DNA of 64,000 nt, taken from contig NZ_FQZU01000006.1 of NCBI RefSeq assembly GCF_900142135.1, positions 62,001 to 126,000 on the forward strand, given 5' to 3'. This document shows, piece by piece, positions 39,499-62,890 of the stretch (position 1 is its first letter; every line of letters begins with the position of its first letter). This DNA is from Desulfatibacillum alkenivorans DSM 16219 (lineage in GTDB: Bacteria; Desulfobacterota; Desulfobacteria; Desulfobacterales; Desulfatibacillaceae). The notes beneath the pieces are model-generated. The model did no database searches. It was not told the origin of the DNA and worked only from the letters and a program-made list of their open reading frames with translations. Both the position numbers and the translations under genes were made by a program.

Positions 39499-39926
39499 TG
39501 TTGGGTTTCGAGTTATGCTTTTTTGCATCTCGACTCTATTCTTTGGCAAGAACAGCCTTCCCGCAAATGGAAAATTTTCTGCGCTCTCTACCCAACCTAC
39601 TATTTTTACAGGAAAAGACGTAGGTTGGGTTGAGCTTGCGAAACCCAACAAATGCAACCTGCAATCCCCCGACAAACTCACCATCGCCCAAACAGCCTGT
39701 CGGTGGGCAGCCCTAGCCGTATCCCGCCTGGGCGCGAAGCGCAAAAGGTGCGACCTGTTAGTTGAAAGAAACCATAGTATTCCTGCGGGCGAGTGTTCCA
39801 TCCAAAACCAAAAAAAAGGATTCAATTAACGCCAAACGCCCGCCGGCCGTCCCTGATTTCCACACTCTTCCTGGCCGCGCCTCTTGGCCTCCGGCCCCAG
39901 GCATTGCATGCCTGGGCCGCCCTGTC
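39499..39926 (+). repeat. Interspersed element, copy A (left direct repeat flanking the toxin-antitoxin pair)
   Basis: ~428 bp nearly identical to 40919-41438. It holds GTTGGGTTT...AACCCAACCTAC palindromic units at its left part and a terminal palindrome CCCAGGCATTGCATGCCTGGG near 39897-39917. A minus-strand open frame (39469-39825) is also preserved in copy B but looks like a by-product of the repeat. No transposase inside. A diverged third copy is at about 62560-62745. Confidence 0.85.
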
Positions 39927-40918: not shown

Positions 40919-41438
40919 TGTTGGGTTTCGAGTTATGCTTTTTTGCATCTCGACTCTATTCTTTGGCAAGAACAGCCTTCCCGCAAATGGAAAATTTTCT
41001 GCGCTCTCTACCCAACCTACTATTTTTACATGAAAAGACGTAGGTTGGGTTGAGCTTGCGAAACCCAACAAACCCGCAATTGGAAAATTTTCTGCACTCT
41101 CTATCCAACCTGCTATTTTTACAAGAAAAGACGTAGGTTGGGTTGAGCTTGCGAAACCCAACAAATGCAACCTGCAATCCCCCGACAAACTCACCATCGC
41201 CCAAACAGCCTGTCGGTGGGCAGCCCTATCCGTATCCCGCCTTGGCGCGAAGCGCAAAAGGTGCGACCTGTTAGTTGAAAGAAACCATAGTATTCCTGCG
41301 GGCGAGTGTTCCATCCAAAACCAAAAAAAGGGATTCAATTAACGCCAAACGCCCGCCGGCCGTCCCTGATTTCCACACTCTTCCAGGCCGCGCCTTTTGG
41401 CCTCCGGCCCCAGGCATTGCATGCCTGGGCCATCCTGT
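40919..41438 (+). repeat. Interspersed element, copy B (right direct repeat flanking the toxin-antitoxin pair)
   Basis: Same sequence as 39499-39926 apart from a few substitutions and one extra internal 93-bp unit (40980-41165 is a tandem pair). It starts 33 bp after the antitoxin stop. With copy A it encloses a ~1-kb segment carrying the toxin-antitoxin genes. Confidence 0.88.
40980..41165 (+). repeat. 93-bp tandem duplication inside element copy B
   Basis: Two units begin CCCGCAAATGGAAAATTTTC (40980) and CCCGCAATTGGAAAATTTTC (41073) and each ends GAGCTTGCGAAACCCAACAA. The offset is exactly 93 bp. Each unit has one GGTTGGGTT/AACCCAAC hairpin. Copy A has only one unit. Confidence 0.85.
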
Positions 41439-41606: not shown

Positions 41607-42647
41607 ATGCTGAAAATTCGTGCGTCCAAAAAGGCGGGGCTGCCGCCCGGAACCATGGTCTATGTGGGAAAGGAGCAGGCCGGCGAGGCGGCAGTCTCCA
41701 TGATTCAATACTCGGAGCAGGAAGCGGAGGAAGTTTCCGTGGACGTCCGCAACCTGCAGATAACGGTTCCTGAGAATAAAGATCGCGTAACGTGGATACA
41801 GGTGACCGGGGTGCATGACCTTGCCCTGGTGGAAAACCTGGGCAGGATTTTTCAGCTTCATCCTCTGGTGACGGAAGACATCGTGCACACCCTGCAGCGG
41901 CCCAAGGTGGAGGATTACGGGGATTACATCTTTGTGACCCTGCGCGCCATGCATCCTCAAGACGAACAGATTTGCCTGATCCTGGGGCCCGGCTATGTGA
42001 TTTCCTTTCAGGAAAACCCAAGCCCTTTGTTTGATTCCGCCAGGGAGCGCATCCTGCGGGGCAAGGGGCGCATCAGGAGGCTTGGGGCGGGATATTTGTG
42101 CTATGCGCTTATGGACATGGTGGTGGACAGCCATTATCATGTGATGGAAAGAATCAACGAGCAGTTGGAGGCGCTTCAAGAGAGCGCTTTGGAAGATTAC
42201 GACGAAGAAACCATCCATGGCGTTCATGCGCTGAAAGGCGAGGTCTTCAGGCTGCGCAAGTCGGTCTGGCCGCTGCGGGAAATGATCGGCCGCATTCAAA
42301 GGAGCGATTCCGGGCTGGTTTCCAGGGAGGTTTCCGTGTTTTTCCGGGACGTCCTGGATCATGCCGCTCAATTGACGGACACCGTGGAGAATTTCCGGGA
42401 AATGCTGGCAAGCATTCAGGATACGCAGCTTTCCAGCCTGAGCAATAAAATGAACGACGTGATGCGGGTGCTCACGGTCATTGCGACCATATTCATTCCC
42501 ATGACCTTTTTGGCGGGCGTCTACGGCATGAATTTCAAATACATGCCCGAACTGGAATGGAGAGCGGCCTATCCCGTATTCTGGATTATCGTGATTATCA
42601 TGGGCCTTGGCATGGTCTGGTGGTTTAAAAAGAAAAAGTGGCTGTAA
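41607..42647 (+). CDS. corA: CorA-family magnesium/divalent cation transporter
   Basis: A 346-residue channel-type transporter. A large cytoplasmic N-terminal alpha/beta domain (1-~280) is followed by two C-terminal TM helices (~287-305 and ~322-340) with the signature YGMNF (306-310) between them, the selectivity filter of CorA. The basic C-terminal tail is KKKKWL. GGAGG is close (3-5 nt) to ATG 41607. It is followed 11 bp later by a mechanosensitive channel gene, probably the same operon. Homopentamer in the inner membrane (family knowledge). Confidence 0.94.
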   Translation: MLKIRASKKAGLPPGTMVYVGKEQAGEAAVSMIQYSEQEAEEVSVDVRNLQITVPENKDRVTWIQVTGVHDLALVENLGRIFQLHPLVTEDIVHTLQRPKVEDYGDYIFVTLRAMHPQDEQICLILGPGYVISFQENPSPLFDSARERILRGKGRIRRLGAGYLCYALMDMVVDSHYHVMERINEQLEALQESALEDYDEETIHGVHALKGEVFRLRKSVWPLREMIGRIQRSDSGLVSREVSVFFRDVLDHAAQLTDTVENFREMLASIQDTQLSSLSNKMNDVMRVLTVIATIFIPMTFLAGVYGMNFKYMPELEWRAAYPVFWIIVIIMGLGMVWWFKKKKWL

Positions 42648-42658
42648 GCAAAGGTGAT

Positions 42659-45301
42659 ATGGTGAAAAGCATGATTGCCGGAAAAAATACTTACCCCCGT
42701 TGTTTTTTCCTTCTTGGGGCGTTTCTCGCGCTTATCCTGACGGGTTTTCTCGCCTGGCCGGGGACGGCCTTATCCGGCCCCAATGACGAAGACTCGGTCT
42801 TAACGGCTCCTCCGGAAGGCCTGATTGCGACAAAGCCTTCCATCTATGCAGATATGCAGGAAAACATCGGCAAAAGCCAACAGGAGGTTAAGGCGGAGCG
42901 GGAGATGTATAAGGCGCGCCTTTCAGCCCTCAAAGACCTGGAGGACGCCTGCCAGTCCGAGCTGAATTCCTATCGCCTTCAATTAGCCGCGTACGAGCAG
43001 GTGCTGCTGCTGGACGACGCCCATGTCAACGACTTGCAAAAACTCTATTCCGGCCAGCGCATCGCCTCTTTTAACATTTCCTCCCGCCTGAAAGACCTCA
43101 GAGCGGAAATGGCCAAATACTCCTCCGCAAAAAGGCAGGCCCAGGAGCATTTGAGAAGATGGCGTGAGCAGCGCCAGACCCTCGCCAACCAGGCGGGACA
43201 GGGAAATCAGGCCGCCGCTCCTCCTTTGGACGAACTGGACGCGTTGCTGGAAAGCCTGGGCGCCCTGGAGTCCTTACTCCAGGAGATAGAAGGGATTTAC
43301 AACGGCCGCATCGCCTCTTTTGAAGAGGTGAACAACGCCTTTTCCGACTTTTTGCAGCAATTACGAGACAGGTCGGCCCGAACCAAAAACCTGGACGTCT
43401 TTCAGAAATCCTCCCCGTTCAGGAGCGTCATAGGCTTTCAGACCGTCTGGGGGGAGTTGGACGAACTGGCCTTTAAACTCAAACATCCCTTGCAAGCGGA
43501 GTATTGGAGCCAAGTGGTCCCCGGAGGCGCACAATACGTCGTATGGTCAGCGGTGCTGTTTTTCTTTTTCACGCTTGGTGTTGCATACCTGATAGGCCGA
43601 AGAGCGCGTAAACTGCTGGACACCCGGAAAAGCGTCATCAACAGGGAGCGGCAAAAGTGGAGCTGGACCGGCATGATCCTGGTTAATCAGAGCGTGGTTC
43701 TCGTCTGCCTTATTCTTTTCCTGTTCGGATACGAAAAGCTTCATGCCTCCTGGCCTTCCATAACCACGCTTAAGGCGGTCAAAGCCTCCCTGATCGTCTG
43801 GCTGGTCACGGGATGGGCCATCTGCCTGGCCCGCATGACTCCGGAACTGCTTTCCTTTTCCATCCCCTTTGGCAAATTTGAAAAAATGGCCAGGATGCTG
43901 CGATTCCTTTTGATCGTCTATGCCGTCCTTTGGTGGAATTCAGGCGTGGAAGGCGGCCTGGCCGTGCTCAGCAGGGTAGTCATCGCAGTCTGCGTTATGA
44001 TCTGGGCGGGCTTGGCCTGGCGATGGACCGTGCGAACCAAAGGCGTGCACGCAGTGGCCAAAGGCCTGGCCCTGACAGGGTTTGGAATAGCCCTGGTCGC
44101 CCTGATTGCGGAATTTCGGGCCTACGCCTATTTTGCCCATTACTGGCTGGCCTCCTGGGGCTTGACCGTGTGGACGGCCCTCGGCGCCTTCGCCTCATTC
44201 GGCGTGCTCCATGAATGGCGCCTCCAGATCAGGGAGCATGAAAAAAGCGTGCAGGAAGAGCAAAGTACAGACTCCCGGCCCGTGCGATGGCTTACCATGC
44301 GCATGGGCTTTCTGGGCTGGTTTCTGGCCGGGTGCTCCCTGCTGTTTGCGGCCTGGGACGTGGATCGCAAAGCCTTTGCCGTGATTTTTGACGTTATCAG
44401 CCGTGAAATTGTCATTGGCAGCATTAGCATCAGCATCCTGGGGATTTTATACGCCGTCCTGGCCCTCTGGTGCACCCACGCCCTGGCCCGGGTGTTCGCC
44501 GACCTCTTCAGGAACAAGTTCCTGGCGGACAGCGGCCTGGAGACCGGTTTTCAGGAGTCCCTGACAACCCTGGCTTCCTACGCCATCTGGACCATAGGCA
44601 TCTTGCTTTCCCTCTCCCTGTTGGGAGTCAGCAGCACGTCCATGGCCGTTGTCTTCGGCGCTTTGGGCATCGGGCTCGGGTTCGGGCTGCAGGCCATATT
44701 CAACAATTTTATGTCCGGCCTGATTCTTTTGTTCGAAAGGCCCATCCAGGTGGGGGATATCCTGGAGGTCAACGGAACCTGGGGCGAGGTCAAAAAAATC
44801 AACGTCCGCTCCACCGTGGTGCAGACCTACGACAACGCGTCCCTCATCATCCCCAACTCCGACATGATCAGCAACCAGGTGACCAACTGGAGCTTCAAAG
44901 ATCCCAAGGTGCGCCGCAATCTGTACGTGGGCGTGGCGTACGGCTCGGACATCGTCCTGGTCCGGGACACCCTCCAGGAAGTGGTGGACAAAAATCCCAG
45001 GATTTACAAACGCCCCAAACCGGACGTCCTGTTTACGGATTTCGGCGACAGCTCCCTCATGTTCCGGGTGCGGTTCTGGTCCCATGTGGATTATTTTTTG
45101 TCCGTGGAAACCGAACTGCGCTTTGAAATCGACCGCCTGTTCCGGGAACGCAAGATCGAAATCCCCTTTCCCCAGCGCGACCTGCACATTAAAACCGCGG
45201 CGGCGTTTAAAAATACGGATGGGTTTTTCAAACAGAAACAAGAGGGGGAAAAAGATGTGGGCGGCCTTCAAGCGCCTGAACCCGAATCCAAAAAGGATTA
45301 G
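42659..45301 (+). CDS. Large mechanosensitive channel, MscS/MscK family
   Basis: An 880-residue channel. Signal peptide (CFFLLGAFLALILTGFLAWPG), then a long periplasmic coiled-coil region (~50-270: QQEVKAEREMYKARLSALKD, LRAEMAKYSSAKRQAQEHLR), then about ten TM helices. The conserved MscS pore and beta domain come near the C-terminus: MAVVFGALGIGLGFGLQAIF NNFMSGLILLFERPIQVGD, then STVVQTYDNASLIIPNSDMI and FGDSSLMFRVRFW. ATG 42659 was chosen over GTG 42638, which overlaps corA. It releases solutes under osmotic downshock. Pairing with corA suggests ionic/osmotic homeostasis. Confidence 0.92.
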   Translation: MVKSMIAGKNTYPRCFFLLGAFLALILTGFLAWPGTALSGPNDEDSVLTAPPEGLIATKPSIYADMQENIGKSQQEVKAEREMYKARLSALKDLEDACQSELNSYRLQLAAYEQVLLLDDAHVNDLQKLYSGQRIASFNISSRLKDLRAEMAKYSSAKRQAQEHLRRWREQRQTLANQAGQGNQAAAPPLDELDALLESLGALESLLQEIEGIYNGRIASFEEVNNAFSDFLQQLRDRSARTKNLDVFQKSSPFRSVIGFQTVWGELDELAFKLKHPLQAEYWSQVVPGGAQYVVWSAVLFFFFTLGVAYLIGRRARKLLDTRKSVINRERQKWSWTGMILVNQSVVLVCLILFLFGYEKLHASWPSITTLKAVKASLIVWLVTGWAICLARMTPELLSFSIPFGKFEKMARMLRFLLIVYAVLWWNSGVEGGLAVLSRVVIAVCVMIWAGLAWRWTVRTKGVHAVAKGLALTGFGIALVALIAEFRAYAYFAHYWLASWGLTVWTALGAFASFGVLHEWRLQIREHEKSVQEEQSTDSRPVRWLTMRMGFLGWFLAGCSLLFAAWDVDRKAFAVIFDVISREIVIGSISISILGILYAVLALWCTHALARVFADLFRNKFLADSGLETGFQESLTTLASYAIWTIGILLSLSLLGVSSTSMAVVFGALGIGLGFGLQAIFNNFMSGLILLFERPIQVGDILEVNGTWGEVKKINVRSTVVQTYDNASLIIPNSDMISNQVTNWSFKDPKVRRNLYVGVAYGSDIVLVRDTLQEVVDKNPRIYKRPKPDVLFTDFGDSSLMFRVRFWSHVDYFLSVETELRFEIDRLFRERKIEIPFPQRDLHIKTAAAFKNTDGFFKQKQEGEKDVGGLQAPEPESKKD

Positions 45302-45329
45302 CAGCCGGGGCAAAAGCATAGCTGTAATG

Positions 45330-46480
45330 CAGCGCATGCCCCTGCGCCCGCCTTCGCAATGTAGTTGCAGTCCTCCGCGCCTGCTCTTGGCAGTGTAGTT
45401 GCAGGCCCCCGTGCCTGCTGTAACAAACGGCAAAAGGGCTGGGCCTTGATCATTGTGCTTATCATAGCGGGGTTGTGTACGATTTGTTTTGCCCAAACGC
45501 GCTATGCGCATTAGTGGGCGCCCACAGGGGGGCGCCGCTACATTGTGTATTAAGGCGCCATGGTTGAATTCAAGTGCAGCGGCAAGCCCAACGCTTGAAT
45601 CACCAGGCAATGCCGCTCAATCTTCCGCGCCTGCCCATGACGGTGTAGCTGCAGGCCCCCGCGCCTGCCCTTGCAGTGCAGCGCAGGCCCCCGCGCCCGC
45701 CCTTGCAATGCAGCGCAGGCCCCCGTGCCTGCTGTAACAAAAGGCAAAAGGGCTGGGCCTTGATCATTGTGCTTATCATAGCGGGGTTGTGTACGATTTG
45801 TTTTGCCCAAACGCGCTATGCGCATTAGTGGGCGCCCACAGGGGGGCGCCGCTACATTGTGTATTGAGGCGCCATGGTTGAATTCAAGTGCAGCGGCAAG
45901 CCCAACGCTTGAATCACCAGGCAATGCCGCTCAATCTTCCGCGCCTGCCCATGACGGTGTAGCTGCAGGCCCCCGCGCCTGCCCTTGCAGTGCAGCGCAG
46001 GCCCCCGCGCCCGCCCTTGCAATGCAGCGCAGGCCCCCGTGCCTGCTGTAACAAAAGGCAAAAGGGCTGGGCCTTGATCATTGTGCTTATCATAGCGGGG
46101 TTGTGTACGATTTGTTTTGCCCAAACGCGCTATGCGCATTAGTGGGCGCCCACAGGGGGGCGCCGCTACATTGTGTATTAAGGCGCCATGGTTGAATTCA
46201 AGTGCAGCGGCAAGCCCAACGCTTGAATCACCAGGCAATGCCGCTCAATCTTCCGCGCCTGCCCATGACGGTGTAGCTGCAGGCCCCCGCGCCTGCCCTT
46301 GCAGTGTATTTGCAGGCCCCCGTGCCTGCCTTTAACAATGTAGTGCAGGCCCCCGTGCCTGCCTTTAACAATGTAGTGCAGGCCCCCGTGCCTGCCCTTG
46401 CAGTGTATTTGCAGGCCCCGCGCCTGCCCTTGGCAGTGTAGCCGCAGGCCCCCGTGCCTGCTGAAGTAAATGGTAAAAGT
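45330..46480 (+). repeat. Tandem repeat array: 314-bp unit plus short GCAGGC-palindrome (REP-like) units
   Basis: A 314-bp unit begins near 45403, 45717 and 46031; the phrase taacaaa.ggcaaaagggct recurs at 45421, 45735 and 46049, exactly 314 bp apart. Each unit contains several copies of CAGGCCCCCGTGCCTG (stem GCAGGC/GCCTGC) and a GGGCGCCCACAGGGGGGCGCC palindrome block. From ~46300 the array continues as 30-40 bp REP-like units up to the transposase. 314 is not a multiple of 3, so the similar open frames inside are not genes. It fills the whole gap 45302-46528. Confidence 0.93.
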
Positions 46481-46528
46481 GCTGGATGCAACCAAAAAGT
46501 ATGCTTAACGCCTGAAAAGGAGAAAAGC

Positions 46529-47119
46529 ATGGCTGACAGGGAGAACAAATCTTACCGACATAAATCAATCCGTTTAAAGAACTATGACTACTCGCGTCCC
46601 GGCGCTTATTATATAACCATCTGCACTCAGGACAAAGCCTGCCTGCTGGGCCAAGTTGTTAACCGGAAGACAGTTCCCAGTGATGCAGGAAAGATGGTGC
46701 GCCAAATTTGGGAGGAGATCCCCAGCCGATACCCAGGAGTGAGACTGGACGCTTTTGTGCTGATGCCCAATCACATTCATGGCATCATAATCTTGGAAAG
46801 AAAATCCTCACTGCAAGACTGTAATCAAAGAGGGGCGGAATCAGGGCGCCCACAGGGATACCTCGCGGCAATGTCGCTTTCGGACATTGTGCGAAGGTTC
46901 AAGACGTTGACGACAAGAAAATATATTGATGGTGTGAATCAACTGGGGTGGCCGCGGTTTAACGGAAAACTGTGGCAACAGAATTTTTACGACCACATTA
47001 TTCGCAAAGAGGAGTCTTTACATTCAATTCGGGAATACATTGCCAATAATCCCGCCCAGTGGGAACTGGACAAGTACAACCCATTCTCAATGAACCGAAA
47101 AGACAACCTTCCGGCCTAG
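46529..47119 (+). CDS. REP-associated tyrosine transposase (RAYT, IS200/Y1-like)
   Basis: A 196-residue Y1 HUH endonuclease. N-terminal RLKNYDYSRPGAYYITICTQ, HUH motif His82-Ile-His84 in MPNHIHGIII, and catalytic Tyr154 in WQQNFYDHIIRKEES, followed by IREYIANNPAQWELD. AAGGAG is 6 nt before ATG 46529; the frame opens earlier, inside the repeat array, but without an RBS. RAYTs are domesticated relatives of IS200 transposases that nick single-stranded REP palindromes. This one directly abuts such an array, which probably is or was its substrate. The segment between the HUH and the Tyr contains GGGCGCCCACAGGG, also present in the 314-bp unit. Confidence 0.92.
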   Translation: MADRENKSYRHKSIRLKNYDYSRPGAYYITICTQDKACLLGQVVNRKTVPSDAGKMVRQIWEEIPSRYPGVRLDAFVLMPNHIHGIIILERKSSLQDCNQRGAESGRPQGYLAAMSLSDIVRRFKTLTTRKYIDGVNQLGWPRFNGKLWQQNFYDHIIRKEESLHSIREYIANNPAQWELDKYNPFSMNRKDNLPA

Positions 47120-47143
47120 ATTAATATCAAAAGCATTACGCGC

Positions 47144-50100
47144 CTATACAATCTGCACCCGGTCCAGATAGATGCGCATTTTTTCCATGCATTCCTTGAT
47201 GACGTCCAGGTTGCCGGTGGAAGCCGCGTCCTTGATCAGGGCGCCGATTTTCTGGGCCTCCTCCAGGCCCAGGGCCTTGCTTTGATCCCGGATTTCCCGG
47301 CCCACCTGGCCCGCCTGTTTATAATCCCCGGCCACGGCAAAGTCCAGTAGATCCTGCATGGTGACGGGCAGGGTTTTGAGGTAATGGGCGGCCATATCCG
47401 CCAGTTCCGGATCCACCCAGGCCAGGATGGGCTCGTCTCCGGCGGGGAAGAAAACCTCGCCAAACATGTTCAGGTCTTCGGGGATGGCGGCTCGGCCTCC
47501 TATGATCTGATTCAGGATGGAGGCGATGAGGGCCTTTTTCTTGACCGGCTTGGCCAGGTAGGCGTTGGCGCCGGCCTCCAGGCATTTGGTCTCGTCGTCC
47601 TTGCTTGCAAAGATGGTGGTGGCGATGATGGACGCCCGCACATTGCGATGCTCCTGCTCCCATTCGCGGATTTTGCGGATGGTCGTGTACCCGTCCATGA
47701 CCGGCATCTGGATGTCCATGAGCACCAGATCGTATTTTTTGGATTTAAACTTGGCCAGGGCGCGCTCCCCGTTTTCCGCCATGTCCATGTGCCAGGGCGT
47801 ATCCTTAAGATAAGCGCGGATGACGAACCGGTTGGTTTCCGAATCCTCCACCAGCAGGATGTCCAGGGGCGGCAGGGTCTGGCTGGATTCCTCGGCCATT
47901 TCCGCCTGTTTGGTGGCTTTGTTTATGATTTCCAGCAGGGAGGCCCGATCAATGGGCTTTTGCACAAAGTGGGTGATTCCCGCTTTCACGGCCCGCGCCA
48001 TGACGTCCGGGTGGGGGCTTTCCTTAAGCATGAGTATGCAGGCCGGGCACAGGTGCTCCATTTTCACCTGGGCGGCGGTTTCCACTCCGTCCATGCCGGG
48101 AATGTCCTGGTCCACGATGATCAAATCCGCCTGCTCCGGCTGCATCCAGGTTTCCTTGAGCAGGTCGATGGCCGAGGGGCCGTCTCCGGCGCCGGTCACA
48201 CGCGCGCCCCACATGTTGAGGACTTCCCGCAGGGTTTCCAGGTTTTCGGGGTCCTGATCCGCCACAATGACGGACAGCCCTTTGAGGGGGGAGACCCTTG
48301 TGAACAGGCCGGAGCCCTTGTCCTGCACGCCGAAGCGCGCGGTAAAGCAGAATGTGCTGCCCTGATCCAGCTTGCTGGAAACCGTAAAATCGCCCTTCAT
48401 CATTTCCACCAGCTTGCGGGAGATGGAAAGGCCTACGCCCGTGCCTCCGTAGTGATGAAAATCCGCATCGTTGTCTTTGGCCATGTGGTCGAACAAAGAG
48501 GACAATCGTTTGGAAGGAATGCCGATTCCCGTGTCTGAAACGCAGAACTCGATGACCGCCTGGCCGTCCTTTCCGTCGCCTTCGGCGGCGTCTCTTACCG
48601 TGACCACCACCTCGCCTTTTTCCGTGAATTTGACGGCGTTCTGCATGAGGTTGTTCAACACCTGCTTGAGGCGGTAGGGGTCTCCAATCAGGTGGATCGG
48701 GGTCTTGGGCGAAACGCTGCACGCCAGTTCCAGGTTCTTTTCGTGGGCTTTTTCCGCCATGGTTTCACAGGCTTTTTCCACCAACTCCAACAAGTTGAAG
48801 GGTATGGTCTCCAGCTTGAGGCGCCCGGCGTCCACGCGCGAGATGTCCATGACGTCGCTCACCAGGCTAAGCAGCTGTTCGTTGGCCGATTTCATGAGCT
48901 TGATGTATTGGGCTTGCTGCTGGGTCAGGCCGGTTTCGTTCAGCAACTCGGTCATGCCGATGATGGCGGTCATAGGGGTGCGCATTTCATGGCTTAAGGC
49001 GGCCAGAAAGCGGTTTTTTTCCTGATTGGCGGCCACAGCCTGGTTTTTCGCCAATATGGCGGCCTCGTGCTGCTTGCGCTCTTCAATGTCTTCCAGGCTG
49101 CCCTCCAGCATAAGGGCGCCGGTCTCTTTATTTTTCACCAGCGTTGCGGAGATGGATCCCCAGGCCAAAGACCCGTCTTTTTTGTTAAACTGCAGCTCCA
49201 TGCCCGCAACCTTGCCCCTGGCCTCCAGTTCCGACCTGAAAGCGCCGTATTCTTCGGAACTGGAAAAAATTTCCCGGACGCCCGGCCCCAGTTTTTGCAA
49301 TAGCTCCACGGGGGAGTCATAGCCGAGAATGCGGGCCAGGGCCGGATTGACGGAAATGAAGGAGCCTTCGGAAGCGCACTGAAACAGGCCTTCCTGGGCG
49401 TTTTCGAAAATTCCGCGGAATTTTTTCTCCGCGCTTTTTATCTGCTCGATGGCGGTTTTTTCCGTGGTGAAGTCAATGGCCATGCCTTCCACGGACTCGC
49501 CGTTATCGGTCAGGCGTGCGGACAGGCGAATCCAGAAAGCGCTGTCATCCACCTTTTTGAACAAAGTCTCGAAGTGCTCCACATCCTCCAACGAGGCCAG
49601 CCTCTTCCTTAGCCTTTGATAATCCGCGGGATCGGCGTAGCGGTCCGGCCCTAAAACAAGGCCTAAAACCTCCTGGCTGGACTTATAGCCCAGCATGCGT
49701 GCAAAGCGGGTGTTGCAGGCCGTAATCCCGTCGTTTTCGAACCGGGTTTTAAAAAGGCCCACATGGGCGTTTTCGTACAGCCTCTGGTAATTGTCCTCGC
49801 TTTGATCCAGGGCGTCCTGTGCCTCTTTGCGCTCCTGGACTTCAATCTGGATTTTGTTCTCGGCCCGGGACAGCTTTTCCGTCATGGCGTTGAAAGCGCG
49901 GGCAAGTTCACCGGTCTCGTCCTTCGCCGTTTCCTCGGCGCGGTGGGAAAGGTCCCCCTGGCTGATGGCCCTGACAGCCTTGGTCAAATCCTCAATGGGC
50001 GCCGCCAGCTTTCTGCCCATGATCATGCCTAAAAACCCGGCAAGCGCCACGGAAAGCCCGAAAACCCCCAGCGCGGTTTTTAAAAAGCTGCGCTGCCGCG

Positions 50101-50680
50101 CAATGATGCTGCTGGCGGCCACGTCCATGGCAAGGATGCCGGCCACATCCCCTTCTGAAGTGAAAAAAGGCGCATATCCCTTAAGCCACGTCCCGGATTC
50201 ATCCGTGTACAGTTTTCCGGAAACCACGGGCATCTGCAACGGCTCCCCATTATTGACAAGCTGGGGATGGGGGGAGTTGTAAGGCGTGTTGGGAAGGATG
50301 CTTCTTTCTCCGTCCCGGCCTCCGCCGTCCACGGCATAGACCAGATTTCCCTGAGGCGTGATGTTCAACGTATAGATGTGGCGTACGTCTGCGCCCCGGG
50401 CGCGGATGGATTGCAAAAGCCCTTTGATTCTCTTATAAGATGTTTTCTTAACGCTTTCAGGAGACCGGATGGAGGCGTGGTGGTCTCCATCAAGCTGAAG
50501 CGCCGCGATGGACACGGTGTCCAATAAACGCTGCTCTATGTTCTCGCGAAGCTGTTTGCTTACGTTGAAATACAGAGCCAGGGTTAAAATGCCGGAAACA
50601 ACGATAGCCACGGCCGCAAAGCCTAAGGCCAGCCTGGGGCCTAAGCCGTTGGAGCCTTTTTTTTCAACAAAACCGTTCAT
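47144..50680 (-). CDS. Hybrid sensor histidine kinase: periplasmic sensor, HAMP, two PAS, HK, two receivers, degenerate Hpt
   Basis: An 1178-residue kinase. TM1 (~18-38), a periplasmic sensor domain (~40-200, with YNSPHPQLVNNGEPLQMP), TM2 (~203-222), HAMP (~222-275) and PAS 1 and 2 (~295-410, ~425-540). HisKA has His564 in AALSHEMRTP; HATPase has NLMQNAVKFTEKG, DTGIGIP and GGTGVGLSISRK. Receiver 1 has Asp in IIVDQDIPGMDG; receiver 2 has Asp in LVLMDIQMPVMDG. The C-terminal helical domain aligns with Hpt (REIRDQSKALG in place of HxLKGxxxxLG), but Arg1128 replaces the phospho-His, so it cannot relay phosphate in the normal way. Convergent with the RAYT gene. Ligand unknown. Confidence 0.9.
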   Translation of the reverse strand: MNGFVEKKGSNGLGPRLALGFAAVAIVVSGILTLALYFNVSKQLRENIEQRLLDTVSIAALQLDGDHHASIRSPESVKKTSYKRIKGLLQSIRARGADVRHIYTLNITPQGNLVYAVDGGGRDGERSILPNTPYNSPHPQLVNNGEPLQMPVVSGKLYTDESGTWLKGYAPFFTSEGDVAGILAMDVAASSIIARQRSFLKTALGVFGLSVALAGFLGMIMGRKLAAPIEDLTKAVRAISQGDLSHRAEETAKDETGELARAFNAMTEKLSRAENKIQIEVQERKEAQDALDQSEDNYQRLYENAHVGLFKTRFENDGITACNTRFARMLGYKSSQEVLGLVLGPDRYADPADYQRLRKRLASLEDVEHFETLFKKVDDSAFWIRLSARLTDNGESVEGMAIDFTTEKTAIEQIKSAEKKFRGIFENAQEGLFQCASEGSFISVNPALARILGYDSPVELLQKLGPGVREIFSSSEEYGAFRSELEARGKVAGMELQFNKKDGSLAWGSISATLVKNKETGALMLEGSLEDIEERKQHEAAILAKNQAVAANQEKNRFLAALSHEMRTPMTAIIGMTELLNETGLTQQQAQYIKLMKSANEQLLSLVSDVMDISRVDAGRLKLETIPFNLLELVEKACETMAEKAHEKNLELACSVSPKTPIHLIGDPYRLKQVLNNLMQNAVKFTEKGEVVVTVRDAAEGDGKDGQAVIEFCVSDTGIGIPSKRLSSLFDHMAKDNDADFHHYGGTGVGLSISRKLVEMMKGDFTVSSKLDQGSTFCFTARFGVQDKGSGLFTRVSPLKGLSVIVADQDPENLETLREVLNMWGARVTGAGDGPSAIDLLKETWMQPEQADLIIVDQDIPGMDGVETAAQVKMEHLCPACILMLKESPHPDVMARAVKAGITHFVQKPIDRASLLEIINKATKQAEMAEESSQTLPPLDILLVEDSETNRFVIRAYLKDTPWHMDMAENGERALAKFKSKKYDLVLMDIQMPVMDGYTTIRKIREWEQEHRNVRASIIATTIFASKDDETKCLEAGANAYLAKPVKKKALIASILNQIIGGRAAIPEDLNMFGEVFFPAGDEPILAWVDPELADMAAHYLKTLPVTMQDLLDFAVAGDYKQAGQVGREIRDQSKALGLEEAQKIGALIKDAASTGNLDVIKECMEKMRIYLDRVQIV

Positions 50681-62870: not shown

Positions 62871-62890
62871 GCAGGCCCCCGTGCCTGCCT
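62871..62890 (+). repeat. Single REP-like unit outside the main array
   Basis: GGCAGGCCCCCGTGCCTGCC matches the palindromic units of the 45.4-46.5 kb array. Confidence 0.75.

Follow-up and report, generated by a model that had tools for sequence, protein, structure and literature searches.

The 64,000-nucleotide stretch of the Desulfatibacillum alkenivorans DSM 16219 genome analysed here (hereafter the window; contig NZ_FQZU01000006.1, positions 62,001 to 126,000, forward strand) contains a gene for a REP-associated tyrosine transposase (RAYT), where REP stands for repetitive extragenic palindrome, and, upstream of this gene, a tandem array built from two types of REP, here termed A and B. 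The array consists of near-identical copies of a 314-bp unit, preceded by a group of degenerate REPs and passing on its right into a run of head-to-tail A-type REPs. The features of the locus are as follows, with coordinates in the window.

45326..45400, plus strand: left REP group, with degenerate A-type units at 45334 and 45367, then the linker and foot of the next unit (A-core matches with 4 and 3 mismatches; period 34 in Tandem Repeats Finder, TRF)
45401..45714, plus strand: 314-bp unit, copy 1, made of an A-type REP, a 98-bp spacer, an inverted B-type REP, a spacer and two A-type REPs (register comparison)
45715..46028, plus strand: 314-bp unit, copy 2 (2/314 differences to copy 1)
46029..46306, plus strand: 314-bp unit, copy 3, partial, 278 nt, ending at a REP foot (register comparison, edge inspection)
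45517..45541, also 45831-45855 and 46145-46169, minus strand: inverted B-type REP with GTAG foot (GTAG-C-GGCGCC...GGCGCC; DNA hairpin fold)
46279..46461, plus strand: head-to-tail A-type REPs of ~33 bp, starting at 46279, 46312, 46345, 46378, 46411 and 46444 (TRF, palindrome scan, hairpin fold)
46529..47119, plus strand: RAYT gene, 196 aa, with H82, H84 and Y154 (Y1_Tnp profile, alignment, model, PDB match)
46842..46877, minus strand: doubtful degenerate trace of a B-type REP in the loop of the RAYT gene, peptide SGRPQGYLAAM (15/20 core bases)

In the TRF output the array extends over 45334-46371 with a period of 314, 3.3 copies and 95% matches, and its right part, 46253-46461, is made up of units of ~33 bp. 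When compared in exact register, the copies of the 314-bp unit begin at 45401, 45715 and 46029, and the array is composed of two full copies and one 278-nt copy (2.9 repeats). The first two copies are distinguished by 2 of their 314 bases. Copy 3 agrees with copy 1 in 277 bases out of the initial 278 and diverges sharply from 46307 on. These comparisons bear out the initial annotation, which had described a 314-bp unit repeated nearly three times at very high identity and passing into short units before the gene, and the two differences between copies 1 and 2 support its suggestion of recent amplification; the gap of ~50 bp that it had given between the array and the gene is corrected to 67 bp, measured from the last array palindrome to the RAYT ATG. 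Exact GCAGGC..GCCTGC palindromes occur 11 times within 45401-46461 and once more at 62871, as opposed to 0.01 expected per window from shuffles. A second palindrome, GGCGCCCACAGGGGGGCGCC, is present in every 314-bp unit in inverted orientation and with a GTAG foot of its own. On its left the 314-bp repeated tract is bounded by a REP core, and on its right it stops inside a foot (GTGCA versus GTGTA). The idea that the array is made of something other than REPs was set aside, as its units are GTAG- or GCAG-footed palindromes.

The A-type REP has the core GCAGGC-CCCCGT-GCCTGC on the plus strand and carries a GTAG foot in most of the outer units, while at the junctions of the 314-bp copies the foot is GCAG instead of GTAG. 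The B-type REP lies on the minus strand, once per 314-bp unit. As single-stranded DNA, either type forms a hairpin that few shuffled sequences equal (1 to 5 of 200 shuffles as good), with z-scores of -4.24 at 45393-45420 and -2.45 at 46437-46463 for type A, and an energy of -9.0 kcal/mol, a z-score of -2.31 and 4 of 200 shuffles as good for type B. Elsewhere in the same genome, A and B are found by eye as compact pairs of ~75-80 bp, in which B and an inverted A surround an ACGCGC..GCGCGT stem (L026, L048 and the duplicated L029/L030; L numbers designate individual loci). These pairs are REPINs by anatomy, being inverted REPs dispersed as one unit, and because A and B are also paired compactly at these sites, the 314-bp unit can be described as a stretched REPIN with two extra A-type REPs.

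When the 314-bp unit was compared with its own genome, 40 of 67 candidates were scored, and the 39 matches among them comprise 6 that are the array locus itself and 33 that are pieces of 26-71 nt; among these 40, the complete unit was found nowhere else, and thus not far from the RAYT. The pattern GCAGGSN{3,8}SCCTGC has 103 matches in the 6.47 Mb genome versus 24 for the reversed pattern, so that single REPs are dispersed. The genome count proposed in the initial annotation therefore agrees with a 314-bp unit confined to the RAYT locus, while its contrast of tandem growth "rather than simple dispersal" does not hold, since A- and B-type REPs are dispersed as well. The RAYT gene is thus adjacent to genome-dispersed, GTAG-footed REPs, as is characteristic of RAYTs, on one side of the gene only.

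The RAYT reading frame starts with an ATG after AAAAGGAGAAAAGC, and its product scores 35.8 bits against Pfam Y1_Tnp and 65.4 bits against NCBIfam REP_Tyr_transpos, the latter under the model cut-off of 80. Judging from the sequences that it retrieves, this NCBIfam model seems to describe a different RAYT lineage: of its best matches in the phylum, 15 loci could be parsed, and the loop is 33-50 aa long in 13 of them. The homologues used for comparison are the best 80 of at least 552 relatives, ranked by similarity to the window protein and belonging to many phyla according to their record titles; 78 of these loci were parsed, L080 and L104 having no parsable HUH motif, and over the 78 the loop from the HUH motif to the following helix measures 44-120 aa. 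The protein has the HUH motif and single catalytic tyrosine in a Y1 core that define the RAYT/TnpAREP family: across 40 aligned homologues, H82 and H84 do not vary and Y154 hardly varies. With a profile of these 40 sequences, a sequence search of the PDB at a threshold of E 0.01 yields 4ER8, TnpArep (E 1.2e-6), and nothing else. The AlphaFold model (predicted local distance difference test, pLDDT, 86; predicted template modelling score, pTM, 0.81) has a strand at 82-89, a lower-confidence loop at ~91-116 and a helix at 117-139, and is matched in Foldseek by ISDra2, IS608 and 4ER8. The identification of the gene as a RAYT and of its neighbours as REPs, as first proposed, is supported by Y1_Tnp, the REP_Tyr_transpos score, the GTAG feet, 4ER8 and Foldseek, and the catalytic residues named at the outset (His82, His84, Tyr154) are intact.

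The array locus is of a known kind, as tandem REPIN clusters beside RAYTs have been published (PMC3116915). In the part of that paper available to this analysis, Pseudomonas fluorescens SBW25 is described as having ordered clusters of nearly identical REPINs with their flanking sequence, and a higher-order cluster adjoins each of three RAYTs; this is the closest precedent for a higher-order REP cluster adjoining a RAYT. Unlike the clusters described there, the array of D. alkenivorans combines two types of REP, has a stretched spacer within its 314-bp unit and tails off into head-to-tail A-type REPs, and its RAYT is probably of another lineage. The REPs themselves can be compared with a GTAG-tagged REP super-family that, according to the accessible text of PMC3733652, includes a family in D. 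alkenivorans, and with which they share the GTAG foot, a stem of at least 6 bp, dimers and clusters, although here the array is dominated by head-to-tail A units (PMC3733652). A literature search brought up no title on such an array in this genus.

REPs are also found inside RAYT genes. Intragenic REPs in other genes have been described (PMC3733652), and for TnpAREP subclass 2.4, which corresponds to RAYT group 4 of Bertels, the available portion of PMC6006769 reports in-frame REPs inside the genes, between HuH and Y, as predominant and not universal. The RAYTs of D. alkenivorans resemble this subclass (PMC6006769) in that three of the four own-genome paralogues, on contigs C49, C25 and C59 and not C34, have in-frame GTAG REPs in the loop, while the window gene differs in that its in-gene REP is at most decayed and without a hairpin fold. 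The sequence at 46842..46877 has a hairpin z-score of +0.93, with 167 of 200 shuffles folding at least as well, and two more hits to type B with 5 mismatches lie in the window outside REPs; it is doubtful that the window gene retains even a trace of an in-gene REP. Intact in-gene GTAG REPs of the own-genome paralogues lie at L054 1374-1395, at L055 22-94 and in G000 (the D. alkenivorans genome) on C25 near 1643. In the paralogue L053 (G000 C34:2483-2989), the matched region contains a single in-frame TGA, and the palindromes upstream, GCAGGGTCTCCCTGC and GCAGGGAAACCCTGC at 2246 and 2332, are different ones.

Across the 78 homologues, at least one GT[AG]G-footed hairpin is present in the loop of 66, versus 120 of 1,560 codon-shuffled loops, and the loops hold 135 hairpins, compared with 22 (in 19 of 78 genes) in the remaining parts of the open reading frames, which are nearly twice as long in sum. 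In the other RAYT lineage, taken as a contrast set of 30 loci matching REP_Tyr_transpos of which 15 were parsable, an in-loop hairpin occurs in one of 15. Exactly a forward hairpin followed by an inverted one is seen in 39 of 78 homologues, the forward foot lies exactly 15 nt past the HUH codons in 22 of 55 (other distances being widely scattered) and in one common reading frame in 47 of 55, and between the inverted REP and the helix 17 nt is the commonest distance (13 of 57, the others again widely scattered). Of 118 occurrences of the foot GTAGGGGC in loops, 99 precede a perfect GGCNNN stem, and 18 different NNN are used; random NNN would give 1.9 such stems. Median loop length is 53.5 aa without a hairpin (n=12) and 72 aa with one (n=66). 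Separately, in-frame tandem duplication of REP or REPIN segments within the RAYT loop was seen at L149 2220-2398, L077 565-741 and L098 6315-6405, and by eye at L115 and L095.

The relation of in-gene REPs to their surroundings was followed in 65 loci, which leave out the 12 hairpin-less loops and L155 (GTGG match only). A copy of the in-gene REP at 0.88 identity or more is present elsewhere in the locus (up to 6 kb per side) in 28 of 65 and absent from that range in 37 of 65; when the 78 loci are ranked for an in-gene REP, its own locus is strictly the best in 14 of 65 cases and one of the first five in 25 of them. A scan for one REP shape in 44 genomes, those behind 44 of the 65 loci and picked for that shape, gave matches in 44/44 with totals of 1 to 114 and none for the reversed pattern, a match in each genome being what the in-gene copies would lead one to expect. 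Fourteen low-count genomes were searched again for the 26-nt shape with two mismatches allowed, in-gene copies being recognised by their letters and spacing. Further REPs were found in G010, G013, G015, G016, G023, G026, G034 and G047, and only hits of unclear kind in G025, while for this 26-nt shape G009, G011, G014, G018 and G022 yielded nothing beyond the in-gene copies and hits judged to be due to chance, which are non-palindromic and amount to between 0 and 4 in each genome (0-2 in the control). Since many of these genomes are fragmented metagenome assemblies and a single shape was sought in them, the absence in the five genomes is provisional. It can tentatively be proposed, with rather more doubt than confidence, that in this RAYT lineage a forward and an inverted REP belong to the gene by design of the lineage instead of having landed there by chance, being placed in frame at a favoured point of the loop between the HUH motif and helix alpha C, keeping their pairing across many different stems and forming in some genomes the only copies found, so that a substrate, either a source copy or a self-binding site, would be carried inside the reading frame and the tandem arrays would be secondary growth around it. 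Relative to the available part of PMC6006769, the conservation of the pairing, the preferred order and position and, provisionally, the genomes with in-gene copies only of that shape (5/14) are additions.

The class of the in-gene REP goes along with the sequence of some segments of the protein. Class was compared between nearest neighbours in 62 homologues (three of the 65 had no helix motif), with kinship ignored; for genes with several REP classes the commonest was taken, 6 ties being settled by order, and the expression that assigned classes differed between the first tree and the later tests. For the segment from helix alpha C to a conserved tryptophan (W), nearest neighbours agree in class in 45 of 62 cases (13.5 on average and 28 at most after shuffling), and for the segment from the N-terminus to HUH in 34 of 62 (shuffled mean ~13.6, maxima 27-28), while the short segment from the W to the C-terminus, which contains the catalytic tyrosine, gives no signal (12 of 62; shuffled mean ~13.6). 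The columns most tied to class over the 62 homologues are R67, T126, W141, Y68, F144, L127 and R130 in the numbering of the window protein, among which R67, Y68, T126, L127 and R130 are candidate specificity residues, although shared ancestry may be the cause of the association. In a tree of well-occupied columns, class agrees between nearest neighbours in 47 of 65 cases (14.2 on average and 26 at most after shuffling), and the window RAYT falls, with a support of 0.947, in a clade whose in-gene REPs have the CCCCYGTG loop of the array, its ten nearest labelled neighbours all being of that class. This placement was rejected as a claim because the Escherichia coli RayT also lies inside the clade, some of the columns are REP-coded, and the placement is lost without the HUH-to-W stretch; the tree without this stretch retains a weak link to class (28 of 65; shuffled mean 14.6, maximum 29).

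As mentioned above, the 314-bp unit is confined to its locus among the candidates scored, and further higher-order tandem arrays with GTAG hairpins are present on the same 214-kb contig (C33 of G000), together with a period-60 array without GTAG hairpins.

C33 15606-16084: 162-bp array, 3.0 copies, 99%, ~92 kb from the RAYT, containing A-, B- or C-type REPs
C33 58481-58990: 255-bp array, 2.0 copies, 100%, ~49 kb from the RAYT, containing A-, B- or C-type REPs
C33 176286-177113: 438-bp array, 1.9 copies, 97%, ~67 kb from the RAYT, containing A-, B- or C-type REPs
Window 40980-41165: 93-bp array, 2.0 copies, 94%, ~5.4 kb upstream of the RAYT, containing another GTAG hairpin

A Y1 gene of a different type, coding for 339 aa, lies ~8 kb from the 438-bp array. 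The 162-bp array starts exactly at a GTAG foot, and the 93-bp array has its edge directly against a hairpin end. The 93-bp unit of this tandem pair belongs to a second REP family, GTAGGTTGGGTTGAGCTTGCGAAACCCAAC, of which a third, single copy lies at 39620-39649; a RAYT matching the GTAGGTTGGGTTGAGCTTGCGAAACCCAAC family was looked for and not found. A second RAYT on contig C29 (L180) was considered as the partner of the GTAGGTTGGG hairpins of the window, and this pairing was dropped as a guess without support.

The RAYT and its array lie between two genes, one of which ends shortly before the array and the other shortly after the RAYT.

42638..45301, plus strand: gene for an MscS-type mechanosensitive channel, left neighbour (Pfam MS_channel domains)
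47144..50680, minus strand: gene for a hybrid histidine kinase, right neighbour (domain search; synteny with L158)

In G001, a genome of the same genus (the comparison covers one genome per species), the channel gene and the kinase gene are arranged as here but lie next to each other, ~250 bp apart by eye, and neither a RAYT nor an array lies between them, from which it follows that the RAYT and array locus was gained or lost on the time scale of the genus.

Taken together, these observations are probably best read as a REPtron-like locus, in which a Y1 HUH transposase of the TnpAREP/RAYT family is accompanied by a one-sided cluster of GTAG-footed palindromes that is its probable substrate, and in which the array has grown by unequal exchange or slippage. 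The locus would have entered the gap between the channel and kinase genes, or would have been lost from it in other species of the genus, and the head-to-tail A-type REPs on both sides of the spacer would then have allowed the unit to multiply by unequal exchange or replication slippage; the edges of the 314-bp repeat, which lie within REP units, fit such exchange or slippage between head-to-tail REPs flanking a spacer. Nicking by the RAYT at GTAG-footed hairpins might conceivably start such events. Several observations weigh against this reading. The 24 bases downstream of the RAYT (47120-47143) contain no REP, and the cluster is one-sided; the edges of the 255-bp and 438-bp arrays lie away from REP hairpins, so that exchange from REP to REP is not a general rule; G001 offers an absence and not an exact empty site, with ends of an insertion that cannot be read, and a loss is possible; and the enrichment of arrays at RAYTs, set out below, would leave room for an active role of the enzyme.

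That the RAYT itself amplified the array, as the initial annotation had suggested, is plausible and unproven, and the fuller form of this idea, in which the enzyme cleaves single-stranded GTAG hairpins near its own gene with a preference in cis and joins or re-inserts the units side by side, is considered unlikely to be the explanation of the array. It draws on the family as a whole, where tandem arrays within 500 nt of the gene occur in 16 of 78 loci versus 5 of 506 distant 1-kb bins (Fisher p 2.9e-11) and arrays make up 6.73% of noncoding DNA within 500 nt of the gene versus 0.09% elsewhere. By eye, the units of these 16 arrays are of REP type in 11, half-palindromes in L083, L091 and L108, and neither in L148 and L149, and in 8 of the 16 loci the array unit matches the in-gene REP of its own gene at 0.84 identity or more. 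This clustering favours amplification by the RAYT, short of proof, as the distant bins are poor in REPs and the enrichment may partly reflect REP density. Within D. alkenivorans, however, three of the four arrays with A-, B- or C-type REPs on the window contig are at least 49 kb (49-92 kb) from any RAYT of the group, and four 20-kb stretches with the paralogues on C34, C49, C25 and C59 yielded no array with a period of at least 50, although on three of these contigs, C34, C25 and C59, the RAYT gene is no more than 3 kb away from a contig end, a place at which repeats may have interrupted the assembly. Tandem growth thus appears as a habit of REP loci in this genome that requires no neighbouring RAYT, and the edges of the 314-bp array fit passive exchange. 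It is still far less probable that the array was selected as a regulatory leader for the RAYT gene, acting as a terminator or as mRNA structure, and not a by-product; its hairpins fold well and it ends directly upstream of the ATG, but 62 of 78 homologues have no array within 500 nt, and single REPs would do the same job.

The locus, read as a REPtron-like unit enlarged by exchange or slippage, is a clean and recent tandem amplification, and it bears on how REPs spread and on whether RAYTs spread them. Across the homologues surveyed, RAYT neighbourhoods are hot spots of tandem arrays. The residues tied to REP class, as candidates for specificity, would be testable handles on the recognition of REPs by these enzymes, and the origin of REPINs could naturally be tested in the genomes that yielded no copies but the in-gene pair.
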